Shown in pieces: positions 1 through 40,721 of a stretch of 40,721 nt of DNA. Each line of letters opens with the position of its first letter. The stretch's first letter is position 1. The DNA is taken from IMG/VR virus record IMGVR_UViG_3300047444_000148, positions 1-40,721 of that record. One strand, written 5' to 3'. The position numbers were made by a program, and so were the translations under genes. This DNA is from a virus. Under the pieces are notes generated by a model. It saw nothing but the letters and a program-made list of their open reading frames with translations. It was not told the DNA's origin and made no database searches.

Positions 1-125
1 TGCACTGAAGAACAAGCAGCGCATCGGATAGCCCGGCAACGTGAGTTGGGAATGTCTAGCCCGAACTGCAATCGGGCCGACCGGATGACCTGGCGAAATC
101 GGAGCCAGCGACGCGACAGAGCCGA
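1..125. repeat. Terminal direct repeat, left copy
   Basis: Bases 1-125 are identical to 40597-40721. The repeat starts with TGCACTGAAGAACAAGC and ends with CAGAGCCGA. It most simply marks the overlap of a circular assembly: the promoter at 40561-40589 reads straight into it, and it lies far from the terminase genes. A true packaging repeat is possible but less likely. Confidence 0.95.
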
Positions 126-5285: not shown

Positions 5286-5483
5286 ATGAAGCTTCGACTC
5301 GACGAATGGTTGCGCCGGGAATTCGAGCCGGCGCCGGCCATCCGAACCGCGCGCCTGTGGATTCGTGACGGAAAAATATGGCCGGCGCCCGTGAAGGTCG
5401 GGCGAGCGTACTATGTCGATCAGAACGCCACGTTTCAGGACCGATCAACCCGGCCTTCACTGGCCCAGCGCATACAAAAATAA
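5286..5483 (+). CDS. xis: Excisionase (Xis), recombination directionality factor
   Basis: 65 residues, the usual excisionase size. It has a winged-helix/MerR-like start (LDEWLRREFEPAPAIRTARL) followed by WIRDGKIWPAPVKVGRAYYV, the wing pattern of phage Xis proteins. It should bind and bend attachment-site DNA so that Int excises the prophage. AGGAGGGAGCGTAG precedes the ATG. Its TAA overlaps the integrase ATG by one base (TAATG), giving the λ gene order xis-int. Confidence 0.85.
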   Translation: MKLRLDEWLRREFEPAPAIRTARLWIRDGKIWPAPVKVGRAYYVDQNATFQDRSTRPSLAQRIQK

Positions 5484-6592
5484 TGGCAGCCCGCCCACGG
5501 ATAAGACGCCGCGCCAACTGGCCGGCGAACCTGCATGAGCCGCGCCCCGGGTACTATACGTGGCTCGATCCGCGCGATAAGAAGACGCACATTCTTGGCC
5601 GCATTCCGCTCGCGCAGGCCATCCACGAGGCGCAAGAGGCGAACGTGATCGTGGAGAACGGGAAGCTGAATCGAACGCTTGCAGAGCGTCTATCAGCCCC
5701 GACGAACACGGTCGCCGACCTTATCAAACGTATGTCGACGGACGGCCAGAAGGCTTCGACGCTGAAAACGCGCGGGTATCTCGATGGAGCGATTGTCAAT
5801 GCAATCGGCACAGTCCCATGCAACGAACTGACGACAAAGCACGTCGCCGAGTTTATCGAGCCGCTTGTGGAGCAGGACAAAAAGCGCACGGCTCAGGCGA
5901 TTCGCAACCGCCTGATGTCAATTTGCCGGAAGGGAAAGCAACTCGGCTGGATGACAGAGAACCCGGTCACGGACACGGAACGGCCGAAGCCGAAGACGAA
6001 ACGGCGCCGGCTGAAGCTGGAAGAATTTCAGGCGATCTTCGAGAAGGCGCCGGAAGTGAACGACTGGTTGCAGAACGCGATGCTTCTGGCGCTCGTCTCA
6101 GGACAGGATCGGGCAACCATCGCGCGTTGGGAACGCTCGTTCTCGTCCGGAAGCGTCGTCCTTCTTCAGCGCTCGAAGACTTCGGTGAAGATCGAGATTC
6201 CAGTTGCGTTGCGACTCGACGCGATTGGTCTGTCGCTGGCTGATGTAATCGCGCGTTGCAAGTCGACCGGCGTCGTTAGCAAGTACCTGATCCACCATAT
6301 CAAGAATCAGGGGCGCGCCGTGCGTGGCTCGCATGTGAAGCTCGGCAGCATATCGATGGCGTTCGCCGCGGCGCGCGAGCTGGCGGGAATCACAGGCGAC
6401 GATCCGCCCACGTTTCACGAGATTCGCAGCCTGGCGAAGCGGCTTTACGACGAGCAGGGTGGCGTCGACACGAAAGCGTTGCTCGGCCACATGACCGACG
6501 CGATGGCGGAAATGTACGCCGACAGCCGGGGAATCGCGCCGATCAAAGTCACGATTGAGGAAAAAAATGGCGAGACCAAGAAGCAAGGGTAG
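5483..6592 (+). CDS. int: λ-type tyrosine integrase
   Basis: 369 residues from the ATG overlapping the xis stop, close to the 356 of λ Int. Residues 1-60 are the arm-binding domain (NWPANLHEPRPGYYTWLDP, ILGRIPLAQAIHEAQEAN). Residues about 75-165 form the core-binding domain and 175-369 the catalytic domain. Catalytic residues fall where expected: Arg210 (SGQDRATI), Lys232 (SKTSVKIEIPV), His312 and Arg315 (FHEIRSL), His336 (LLGHMT) and the nucleophile Tyr345 (MYADSRG). It integrates the phage genome at a host attB. The next gene overlaps its 3' end by 26 bases and encodes another copy of the arm-binding domain. Confidence 0.95.
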   Translation: MAARPRIRRRANWPANLHEPRPGYYTWLDPRDKKTHILGRIPLAQAIHEAQEANVIVENGKLNRTLAERLSAPTNTVADLIKRMSTDGQKASTLKTRGYLDGAIVNAIGTVPCNELTTKHVAEFIEPLVEQDKKRTAQAIRNRLMSICRKGKQLGWMTENPVTDTERPKPKTKRRRLKLEEFQAIFEKAPEVNDWLQNAMLLALVSGQDRATIARWERSFSSGSVVLLQRSKTSVKIEIPVALRLDAIGLSLADVIARCKSTGVVSKYLIHHIKNQGRAVRGSHVKLGSISMAFAAARELAGITGDDPPTFHEIRSLAKRLYDEQGGVDTKALLGHMTDAMAEMYADSRGIAPIKVTIEEKNGETKKQG

Positions 6593-7145
6593 AACGGGGC
6601 TTCCGGAGAATCTATATTCTCAGATCAGAAACGGAAATGAGCATTTCAGATACCGAAGTCTTATAACTGGACGTACTAAATCAATTGGAACTGACCGCGA
6701 ACGCGCCGTCCAATATGCCGAAGAAGCCAATCGTGAAGTTGAAGGTAGGCGTGGTCTTAGAACTCACGCTCAGCAATCTGTTAAGCATGGCTATATAGAC
6801 TATCGTGGTCTTTTGGAGCAGGACACCATTGCCATGAAGGCACTGATGTTCGATCACATTTGCGGCGTCTATTTCCTATTGGATCAGGAAACGATAGTCT
6901 ATGTCGGTCAATCGCTGAACGTCATGGCACGTTTGTCAGATCACAGAAGAGAAGGACAAAAGCAGTTCAATCGAATTTTCGTCGTCGAATGCAAGATCGG
7001 AGAATTGACGCATCTGGAGGCACTATACATCGACAAGTTCAAGCCGATCTATAACCTAGCACGGCCGGCCGTTAACCCCGAGTCAACGGCATGGGATGCA
7101 TCTCTTTCAGACCTGCTTCGAGGGGCAGTGTATGAGCAGAATTAA
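6567..7145 (+). CDS. Int-type arm-binding domain fused to GIY-YIG nuclease
   Basis: 192 residues from the ATG at 6567 (GAGG six bases upstream), in a different frame overlapping the last 26 bases of int. Residues 1-60 resemble the arm-type DNA-binding domain of λ-like integrases: RPRSKGRTGLPENLY, then HFRYRSLITGRTKSIGTD and AVQYAEEANREVE. Residues 98-165 are a GIY-YIG nuclease: GVY (100-102), YVG (112-114), Arg122, His126, Glu151 in the LEALYIDKFKP helix, and Asn163. All key residues are present, so cleavage activity is plausible. The coding style is more AT-rich than in int, suggesting separate acquisition. I infer a nuclease or recombination modulator directed to attachment-site arms. Confidence 0.85.
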   Translation: MARPRSKGRTGLPENLYSQIRNGNEHFRYRSLITGRTKSIGTDRERAVQYAEEANREVEGRRGLRTHAQQSVKHGYIDYRGLLEQDTIAMKALMFDHICGVYFLLDQETIVYVGQSLNVMARLSDHRREGQKQFNRIFVVECKIGELTHLEALYIDKFKPIYNLARPAVNPESTAWDASLSDLLRGAVYEQN

Positions 7146-7435
7146 CGACAAATATTCCACGCCTGTTCAACGCCCATCCGAAAAACGTTGCTGATAAAGG
7201 GATCTAGGTTAATCGGTACCACCTCGGAGATGTAGGCGCCTGAAGACGTTGATTTTCGCTTTATTTTCAAAGAATTATCTCCGTTTCAGCACGCAAAAAC
7301 ATGTGCCGAAATGAGCAATTACGTCCTAATGAAATCAAATACTTGCGCTTAGTTTTGAACAGATGAATATCGCGCTGTAGTAAAATCCGCGCGCTGACTG
7401 AATAAAAACTAAGCAAAAAATACCGAGAGGAGATT
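7146..7435. other. attP: Putative attP region (intergenic)
   Basis: This 290-base stretch has no convincing gene and is AT-rich compared with its surroundings. It follows the xis-int block, where λ-like phages carry attP. It contains a perfect IHF consensus match (AATCAAATACTTG, 7333-7345) and a one-mismatch site on the other strand (7242-7254), plus a 10-bp inverted repeat at 7347-7356 and 7405-7414 that could be arm-type sites. The core crossover site cannot be identified without a host junction. A weak promoter for the acyltransferase gene may also lie here (TTGAAC at 7355; no good -10). Confidence 0.5.
7347..7414. repeat. 10-bp inverted repeat in putative attP
   Basis: GCTTAGTTTT at 7347-7356 is the exact reverse complement of AAAACTAAGC at 7405-7414. 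The left arm touches the IHF-like site, and the right arm ends 21 bases before the acyltransferase start. It may be a pair of integrase arm sites or an operator. Confidence 0.55.
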
Positions 7436-8587
7436 ATGGGCCTACTTCGAATAATCCTGGCGCTGTCCGTCTTCGCGGCGCATGCCTACGACGCCTTTGG
7501 CGGTGGCGCGCGGCTGATGGACTGGCATTCCCCAGCGTCGAGAAATGGCATGCACCTGTACGTCTGGTCGGGGCATGCCGTCTTCGCGTTCTTCATCCTG
7601 TCCGGCTTCTACATGGCGATGGTGATCAACGAGAAGTATTCGAAGATGCCCGACGGAACGCGACGCTTCTATTTCAACCGCGCGCTGCGGCTGTATCCGG
7701 CGAACTGGGTGATCCTGGCCGGGTTCGCGCTGGTCTATGTCGCGAGCGGTACGCCGTCGTTTCTCACATTCACCCACGGCGAATCGTGGATGACGCCGAT
7801 CGCGTTCTTCTGCAACCTGTTCTTCTTCGGCGCGGAGATCCTTCCATTCAAGCATCCGCAGAACTGGCAGTATGTCATCGGCCCGATCTGGTCGCTGAGT
7901 CTCGAAGCCTACTTCTACATCCTGGCGCCGTTCATCGTCACGCGGTCGCTGAAGTCGATTGCGCTGCTGGCTGCCGCGAGCGCTGCGCTGCGCCTCACGC
8001 TCTACCATACCGGCGTCGGTCCCGAGCCGTGGCGATACTTCTTCTTCCCGTCCGATCTCGTCTTCTTCCTGATGGGCGTGATCGCGTACCGCCTGTTTGC
8101 CTGCGTGAAGGATGCCGCGTGGACGAAGCCGGCCGGGATCTTCGCGGCTGCAGTGATCTTCGGTCTGATCGCGTTCCCGCCATTCTGGAAATATGCTTCC
8201 AATCTCGACTGCTGGCAGAGTTGGGCGTTCTATTTAACCGTCGCCGCGGGCACGCCGTTCCTGTTCAGCCTGACGAAGAACAGCGCGATCGACAACTTCA
8301 TCGGCCAGCTTTCATACCCGGTTTATCTCGGGCACATCTTGGTCTTCTCGGCGATGCTGTGCTTCTACAATGGCCCGATGGACAAGGGATTGCTGTCGCT
8401 GATCCTGACATTCATCATGGCAGTCGGCATTTATCTAGCCGTGGACAAGCCGATCGATTCCATCAGGCACAACATCGCTAGGCGGCGGGCGCCGGCGCAG
8501 GAGCCGCAACCGGACCGTACTGCGCCAGTGCTGCCGACAGAGCCGTCTGGAACGCGATCAGGCCAATCTGGATTGCGGTCTTCGTAG
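7436..8587 (+). CDS. Acyltransferase-3 family membrane protein (O-acetyltransferase-like)
   Basis: 383 residues; GAGAGGAGATT precedes the ATG. It has about ten hydrophobic segments, the family-typical first-helix His16 (LSVFAAHAYDA), FFILSGFYMAM, the cytoplasmic YFNRALRLYPANW motif and GPIWSLSLEAYFYILAP. Members move acyl groups, usually acetyl, onto surface sugars at the inner membrane. In a temperate phage beside attP this is a typical lysogenic-conversion gene, likely altering the O-antigen and blocking superinfection. The last about 35 residues are Pro/Arg-rich and are read antisense through the end of the lipoprotein gene, so the native C-terminus was probably near 8480-8500. Confidence 0.88.
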   Translation: MGLLRIILALSVFAAHAYDAFGGGARLMDWHSPASRNGMHLYVWSGHAVFAFFILSGFYMAMVINEKYSKMPDGTRRFYFNRALRLYPANWVILAGFALVYVASGTPSFLTFTHGESWMTPIAFFCNLFFFGAEILPFKHPQNWQYVIGPIWSLSLEAYFYILAPFIVTRSLKSIALLAAASAALRLTLYHTGVGPEPWRYFFFPSDLVFFLMGVIAYRLFACVKDAAWTKPAGIFAAAVIFGLIAFPPFWKYASNLDCWQSWAFYLTVAAGTPFLFSLTKNSAIDNFIGQLSYPVYLGHILVFSAMLCFYNGPMDKGLLSLILTFIMAVGIYLAVDKPIDSIRHNIARRRAPAQEPQPDRTAPVLPTEPSGTRSGQSGLRSS

Positions 8588-40596: not shown

Positions 40597-40721
40597 TGCA
40601 CTGAAGAACAAGCAGCGCATCGGATAGCCCGGCAACGTGAGTTGGGAATGTCTAGCCCGAACTGCAATCGGGCCGACCGGATGACCTGGCGAAATCGGAG
40701 CCAGCGACGCGACAGAGCCGA
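40597..40721. repeat. Terminal direct repeat, right copy
   Basis: Identical to bases 1-125; see the left copy. It begins directly after the promoter region, at about the expected transcription start. Confidence 0.95.

Follow-up and report, generated by a model that had tools for sequence, protein, structure and literature searches.

A lambda-Int-type arm domain fused to a GIY-YIG nuclease between a phage integrase gene and its presumed attachment region: a candidate att-directed homing-type nuclease

A phage gene placed between a lambda-type integrase gene (int) and the presumed attachment region encodes a protein, here called Arm-GIY, in which sequence profiles and a predicted fold place a lambda-Int-type arm domain in front of a GIY-YIG nuclease. 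The protein is best explained as a free-standing, att-directed nuclease of the homing type, a reading that is held with slightly more belief than doubt. The DNA comes from the IMG/VR record IMGVR_UViG_3300047444_000148, positions 1-40,721, and 'the window' denotes this whole stretch of 40,721 nt. The window is most likely a whole phage genome of 40,596 bp, circular or permuted, since it has an exact direct terminal repeat of 125 bp (window 1-125 and 40597-40721). An 80,256-bp record (G001, the contig of L002, L150 and L151) is identical to the window across the first 14,142 bases that were compared; at about 40.6 kb it passes, at a repeat of 125-135 bp, into a second related phage with another integrase, and it is probably an assembly chimera and possibly a pair of tandem phages.

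The gene order over about 5.3-8.6 kb is excisionase, lambda-type int, the Arm-GIY gene, 290 bp of AT-rich non-coding DNA and an acyltransferase moron (Table 1). The Arm-GIY ORF is intact and separate, and runs from an ATG at 6567 to a stop that ends at 7145 (192 aa); the program-made ORF begins at TTG 6555, and homologues align from the ATG. It overlaps int by 26 bp, which suggests that it may be translated together with int, and its GC content of 0.46-0.48 is low beside the 0.57-0.65 of int and the next gene. In the integrase itself R210, K232, H312, R315, H336 and Y345 are invariant in a four-row alignment, and Pfam gave no PF00589 match up to E=1. No tRNAs were found by ARAGORN in the window or in 11 loci. 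The preliminary description had seen no intron here, and Rfam agrees: at E up to 1 it has no match within 6400-7600, on which grounds an intron, or any other known RNA, was rejected for the locus. Arm-GIY is thus a nuclease with a separate DNA-binding module outside any intron or intein, that is, free-standing.

Table 1. Features in and around the Arm-GIY locus, with positions in the window
Feature	Position	Strand	Basis
Excisionase gene	5286..5483	+	PF07825 (Pfam) E=2.4e-15; PHROG 629 excisionase E=2.9e-15
Lambda-type tyrosine integrase gene with its own arm domain	5483..6592	+	PF09003 E=1.2e-7; PF22022 E=2e-9; PHROG 7244 E=7.8e-40
Arm-GIY gene (arm-binding domain + GIY-YIG nuclease)	6567..7145	+	ORF, Pfam, alignment, predicted fold
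Arm-binding domain, residues 1-60	6567..6746	+	PF09003; model beta-beta-beta-alpha; VIA match to 1kjk
GIY-YIG nuclease core, residues 99-164	6861..7058	+	PF01541; VIA matches to UvrC 1ycz and I-TevI 1ln0; invariant catalytic residues
Putative degenerate P' arm region	7146..7184	+	first TTTTGAAC site absent; 7154-7167 common to gene-less L352
Candidate attP core	7185..7201	+	alignment with gene-less att regions of relatives
IHF-like site, exact WATCAANNNNTTR	7333..7345	+	only exact match in the window
Presumed distal P-arm arm-type site TTTTGAACAG	7353..7362	+	recurs with the IHF-like site in carriers and gene-less int phages
Acyltransferase moron, bounding the att region	7436..8587	+	PF01757 E=9.1e-21; PHROG 3333 O-acetyltransferase E=2.2e-34

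Residues 1-60, which had been compared to the arm-type DNA-binding domain of lambda Int, do match PF09003 (E=1.5e-10, 41.4 bits against a cut-off of 22) as well as the lambda Int arm domain in the PDB (1kjk), both by phmmer (E=7e-4) and by a family profile (E=1.5e-12). The nuclease part matches PF01541 over residues 99-159 at E=5.5e-4 and 20.6 bits, slightly below the curated cut-off of 22.6, and the family profile finds UvrC 1ycz in the PDB at E=3.7e-5. The GIY-YIG residues expected in the preliminary description are all there: G100, Y102, Y112, G114, R122, H126, E151 and N163 are invariant in a six-row alignment, and these include the catalytic Tyr, Arg, Glu and Asn (Y102, Y112, R122, E151, N163; 6/6 rows). 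No Phage_integrase match (the catalytic recombinase domain) was obtained in the 192 residues up to E=1, the C-terminal part being GIY-YIG. PADLOC returned weak matches to the nuclease half, the best being PDC-S14 (1.4e-8) and UzuA (1.6e-5).

The predicted structure points the same way. An AlphaFold2 model (7-row alignment, mean pLDDT 70, pTM 0.56) has strands at 16-21, 24-30 and 37-41 and a helix at 44-72, that is, a three-stranded sheet and a helix, followed by a beta-beta-alpha-beta-alpha GIY-YIG core. Foldseek gave 1kjk, 2wcc and the UvrC GIY-YIG domain a probability of 1.00 each, with no row at E<=0.001. VIA-align 2, in which Z below 8 may reflect a common arrangement, matched the arm part to 1kjk (Z 7.0, 1.6 A, 49 residues) and 1z1b (Z 7.5, 2.4 A, 54 residues), and the nuclease part to UvrC 1ycz (Z 8.6, 1.9 A, 72 residues) and to the I-TevI catalytic domain 1ln0 (Z 7.5, 2.1 A, 71 residues). 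The fold assignments are firm because the sequence profiles match the same entries (1kjk at 1.5e-12, 1ycz at 3.7e-5). A different N-terminal fold, which had been named as the outcome that would speak against the domain assignment, did not appear in the model. Arm-GIY therefore resembles the lambda Int arm-binding domain (1kjk, 2wcc) in sequence and fold over about residues 1-60, and differs from Int in that it continues into a nuclease and not into recombinase domains.

The arm domain had also been likened to that of the integrase encoded immediately upstream. This stands as far as family membership goes, both matching PF09003; the two are not close copies, as BLASTP gives E=5.2 for the segment, and on this value together with the AT-rich composition of the gene a recent copy of the neighbouring Int's arm domain was rejected. 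The HEPRPGYY loop of the neighbouring Int is missing from the arm domain of Arm-GIY, which also carries an insertion of two residues; nuclease and Int may thus read different sites. BLASTP of the arm domains against their own Int gave no significant match (window E 0.25; L093 0.051; L159 0.96, with an Int frame that lacked its N-terminus). Arm-domain type is associated with integrase type over 13 lineages (Fisher p=0.021), but four of these (L276, L284, L291, L363) came from integrase-started scans; the test is biased, and pairwise domain-integrase matches are therefore relied on instead. On an arm-domain tree of 63 columns three changes are needed (bootstrap 2-3), and a single origin of the arm domains is possible from the sequences.

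The domain pair recurs. A database search for it near integrases had been proposed as a check, and IMG/VR scans with family alignments and the integrase as queries found arm plus GIY in seven viral lineages, the window included. The identities are 55% for L092/L093, 56% for L159, 38% for L011, 40% for L097 and 37% for L012/L013, and L363 is a further carrier; PF09003 scored above its cut-off in all four other carriers that were run through Pfam (L011, L097, L092, L012). Five lineages (the window, L161=L093, L159, L163=L012 and L363) have the gene overlapping the end of a lambda-type int, with the presumed attP on its other side. The start codon of the L159 gene is probably TTG. The int of this locus has an in-frame TAG about 95 codons in (L159:4200-4560), owing to sequence error or decay. 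In the other two (L011=L162, L097=L170) the gene points away from a tyrosine integrase of another kind that lies about 0.2 kb off, and the nuclease has a HEPRPGYY-type lambda arm beside this non-lambda integrase. Upstream of int in L160/L161 and L163/L164, the early genes are separated by many recurring stretches of about 24-50 bp, mostly more than 90% identical, which could be recombination points; ASNERADA-like peptides are common to several of these genes.

Nearness to an integrase goes with the N-terminus. The nuclease-based scans yielded 137 distinct GIY domains once duplicate contigs were dropped. An integrase lay within 1.5 kb of all six arm-type GIY genes and of three of the four with the N-terminus of a second integrase family (the fourth is at a contig edge), against at least 16 of the 127 with other N-termini, a lower bound since the integrase profiles were built from the two families studied. 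Three of the nine scanned among these 16 carry AlpA, HTH_17 or DUF4224 above the curated cut-off, namely L129:4662-5276 (AlpA, E=2.5e-14), L216:6764-7225 (HTH_17, 6.8e-7) and L141:4764-5237 (DUF4224, 4.4e-8), and these are perhaps the same idea with excisionase-like modules.

The region 5286-7435 had no DNA relatives by blastn among 50,697 phage records, and the protein matches in phage and plasmid records span one half of Arm-GIY each, never both. For example, GIY-YIG proteins of plasmids are 39-41% identical in the nuclease half over residues 63-171, but the match begins at residue 63 and the arm domain is not shared. On the mobilizable plasmids concerned these related genes are flanked by trbI and a KfrB-domain gene (L003:3830-4360, L004:2830-3399); the annotation of the two regions names no tyrosine integrase, and a 'recombinase family protein' is 1.2-1.8 kb away. 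No arm plus GIY protein was found in 299 genomes of one bacterial family at E<=1e-12, the two matches being integrase arms. In the Burkholderiales-order genome G044 a GIY-YIG gene (L157:9964-10938) has a weakly arm-like N-terminus (profile E=0.0028); it was the one hit in 399 genomes at E<=1e-10 and was left out as a lineage, with no PF09003 match up to E=0.1.

The target presumed for such a protein is the attachment region. In many gene-less relatives the int stop is directly followed by repeats of 11-bp period, such as GTTTTGAACGA ATTTTGAACAG, then by a core-like stretch, and then by the exact form of what we take to be the IHF consensus with one more TTTTGAACAG. The 11-bp-period repeats are probably arm-type sites, judging from their sequence and place. 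At least two TTTTGAAC-like sites within one mismatch occur in 16 of 29 distinct gene-less regions, a count whose filter missed some gene-less loci and placed L159 and L161 slightly off, and the IHF-plus-arm pattern was matched in 11 of 41 lambda-type int loci; the statement that all lambda-type integrases have the repeats is too strong given these figures. Lambda-type integrases of this kind were found in 25 of the 299 bacterial genomes (E<=1e-60), and in most of 27 bacterial int loci repeats stand at the int stop, as judged by eye. The repeat sequence differs by integrase (TTTTGAAC; TTTTGGAC or TTTTGGAT; others) alongside the arm loop, HEPRPGYY or QNSxGYY, again by eye.

In the window, the chance of an exact IHF consensus within 7146-7435 is 0.018 by shuffling. 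Periodicity 3' of the gene is 0.47 at lag 11 against 0.17-0.31 at lags 8-10, 12 and 13; the same 11-bp period was found in three of five carriers (window, L161, L363) and not in L159 or L163, L107 having been dropped for its contig edge. A downstream motif of about 29 bp was once taken as the attP core; it is now read as IHF plus an arm-type site because the int-proximal repeats and the core lie elsewhere. Within three mismatches it was absent from all 399 Burkholderiales-order genomes. A shorter exact motif pattern occurs in 11 viral contigs, of which three are carriers and six are gene-less phages with lambda-type integrases; the other two (L238, L241) had no integrase or nuclease match.

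Close relatives that lack the gene show what an empty site looks like. In L352, L353 and L354 the int DNA is 87-88% identical to that of the window, the nuclease gene is absent and GTTTTGAAC stands directly 3' of the int stop. Two further repeats lie beyond it in L353, while L352 and L354 have a degenerate sequence in common with the window from 7154 (ATTCCACGCCTGTT in L352, with one change in L354). Where these relatives have the first site, the window has the nuclease gene, after which the sequence in common with L352 sets in again at 7154. Gene-less relatives of the same kind exist for L161 (L366-L368), so that unoccupied alleles at the same place are found in close relatives of both carriers. 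Overall, the gene is present in four of 31 lambda-type int loci with at least 700 nt after int, two of the four being near-copies, and absent from 27; the 10 of 41 loci with less than 700 nt were dropped.

Loss of the first site would suit a carrier of such a nuclease. As the window is without the first arm-type site of its nearest relatives, a carrier may resist its own enzyme. The exact TTTTGAAC first site occurs in 16 of 33 gene-less and in none of four occupied regions, which is not significant (Fisher p=0.12; left out were seven short loci, 17 whose best ORF had no HEPR loop, and duplicates, and the four carrier loci were entered separately); in an earlier, less complete locus set it was found in 12 of 29 gene-less regions (p=0.27). 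The degenerate second and third sites of the window are common to the gene-less L352 and L354, and hence their degeneration was not caused by the nuclease. Repeats and sites are also retained in carriers: three 11-bp repeats in L161, a one-mismatch site across the stop codon of L363, TTTTGAACAG at 7353 in the window, and TTTTGAACAG again in L162 and L170, about 20 bp past their own stop. Since carriers retain TTTTGAACAG, self-avoidance would need a spacing or cleavage rule that is unproven.

Evidence of mobility comes from one pair of carriers. Between L163 and L164 the nuclease gene has 0/579 substitutions, and the identical tract of 718 bp reaches 94 bp into int and 45 bp into the att region; the flanks differ at 31/1141 positions in int (2.7%) and at 23/261 in the downstream att region (8.8%). 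The chance of zero change is 1.3e-10 at the pooled flank rate and about 1e-7 at the int rate, both of which are crude, and the pattern resembles that of a recent gene conversion. Only in this pair is the tract limited to the gene; a second set (L291/L302/L337), which belongs to the second integrase family, is mosaic, and its tract runs into int. There L302 and L337 have 0/510 changes in the nuclease and 47/1027 in int, the near-identical stretch extending into int, and L291 against L337 shows the reverse pattern (nuclease 5/510, int 1/994). As regards selection, dN is 0.185 and dS 2.3 (near saturation) between L162 and L170, with no dS obtained from three other pairs; dN being far below dS, the protein is constrained.

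A parallel fusion has occurred in the second integrase family. A GIY gene lies before int in eight of 40 second-family int loci with at least 900 nt there (the 40 of 80 with less were dropped). Two of the eight carry the lambda-type arm (L272=L011, L275=L097), and in six (L276, L284, L291, L302, L310, L337) the N-terminus is homologous to the N-terminal domain of the second-family integrase itself; L302/L337 and L291 are near-copies, and L310 is the contig of L089. Three genes of this type found by the nuclease-based scans matched their own neighbour integrase at E=4e-11, 1.6e-13 and 6e-4, and hhalign of the second-family nuclease N-termini with the integrase N-termini gave 99.5% (E=6e-23), with no link to the lambda arm (0.3% and 0.1%). 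The model of L291 has three strands and a helix ahead of the GIY core (mean pLDDT 71). No integrase arm rows appeared in the VIA list for the second-family nuclease model, which is uninformative either way, and a PDB profile search with this nuclease family gave zero matches up to E=1.

The att regions of the second family have features of their own. The stretch between int and the next gene in L162, L170 and some relatives is presumably a tRNA 3' end (ARAGORN finds no tRNA), and we take it for the attP core of the second-family phages. TGTGTAGA-like repeats, 11 bp apart, are seen 5' of the start codons in L291, L276 and L284. L162 and L170 have the IHF plus TTTTGAACAG element directly 3' of the nuclease stop despite their other integrase; it is nearly identical between the two, in aligned DNA of 75% identity.

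These observations could be best accommodated by homing. The N-terminal arm domain would bind arm-type repeats at the int/attP junction of related phages, the GIY-YIG domain would cut at that junction, and repair from the carrier genome would copy the gene in between int and attP, a step for which the empty sites and the one identical tract speak. Insertion of the gene would split the junction, and related phages without it would be put at a disadvantage. Counted against this reading are the non-significant test of first-site loss, the TTTTGAACAG sites that carriers retain, the differing loop in the window's arm domain, the arm domains of the window, L093 and L159 that do not match their own Int significantly, and the mismatch of arm and integrase type in L162 and L170. 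Arm-GIY resembles the free-standing GIY-YIG homing endonucleases of T4-like phages and I-TevI in catalytic fold and residues, in its separate DNA-binding module, in its insertion beside a presumed target and in having empty alleles. The DNA-binding parts of those enzymes are of other kinds, and we know of no free-standing homing endonuclease of the T4-like or I-TevI type with an integrase arm domain. The preliminary description is supported on three points, namely that the two domains are fused, that the N-terminal part has the arm fold and that the gene lies between int and the att region; of the roles that it had offered, a selfish element and a nuclease against att sites are those favoured, on sequence grounds, by the empty sites, the identical tract and the parallel integrase-domain fusion.

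Alternatively, the nuclease may be a weapon and not a homing enzyme, destroying the attP or prophage ends of competitors with the same arm-type sites and spreading by ordinary phage recombination. This is unlikely, though it has a precedent. Odn (Gp88) of phage ICP1 is an origin-directed nuclease of the GIY-YIG superfamily that cuts the origin DNA of its target, and its N-terminal domain is 42% identical to the RepA_N domain of that target (PMC8263062). Homologues of Odn with swapped RepA_N domains are reported (PMC10448857); the words temperate, prophage, lysogen and lambda are all absent from the main text of that paper. On the homing reading as well, Odn is the nearest precedent for Arm-GIY, as both are nucleases whose N-terminal domain has its homologue in the DNA-binding domain of a protein that the target element itself encodes. 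They differ in that Odn has RepA_N whereas Arm-GIY borrows the integrase arm domain, its presumed target being the att region; in that the Pfam nuclease match of Arm-GIY is PF01541 and not T5orf172; and in that cutting is shown for Odn and presumed for Arm-GIY. Furthermore, the Arm-GIY gene is not set apart from the target copy: it shares bases with the int of its own phage and abuts that phage's presumed attP. L162 and L170, which carry the HEPRPGYY-type nuclease arm with a different integrase at that place, would fit a weapon; a gene at its presumed target beside its own int, with empty alleles and a short identical tract, is typical of homing.

A third explanation is an accessory att factor, in which the arm domain competes with or assists Int, or represses int, and the nuclease nicks or is little used. 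The overlap with int, the place between int and attP and the AlpA, HTH_17 or DUF4224 domains in three of the nine scanned integrase-adjacent GIY genes agree with such a role, but 27 of 31 lambda-type int loci, close relatives included, do without the gene and the catalytic residues are invariant, which leaves it quite improbable. A chance domain shuffle without function, which the rarity of the gene and the lack of an arm plus GIY protein in the 299 genomes would suit, can hardly be credited in view of seven lineages, the conserved catalytic residues, the second parallel fusion and a dN well below dS in the one measurable pair.

The homing-type reading of Arm-GIY may extend to a general class of att-directed GIY-YIG nucleases that repeatedly take the N-terminal domain of the adjacent integrase family, or excisionase-like modules, border on attP, cleave the corresponding regions in related phages and so drive the exchange of integrase/attP modules among temperate phages; the existence of this class falls a little short of probable. 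A literature search over titles and abstract starts, with subscription journals and preprints mostly outside its scope, did not find a fusion of integrase arm and GIY-YIG described. If the reading is true, attachment sites would be a battleground as replication origins are, contested by a nuclease steered by the integrase's own DNA grip, and this would help to explain the exchange of integrase/attP modules. It would also make targeting by domain-swapped nucleases directly testable, and supply small nucleases whose specificity is predictable and can be swapped.
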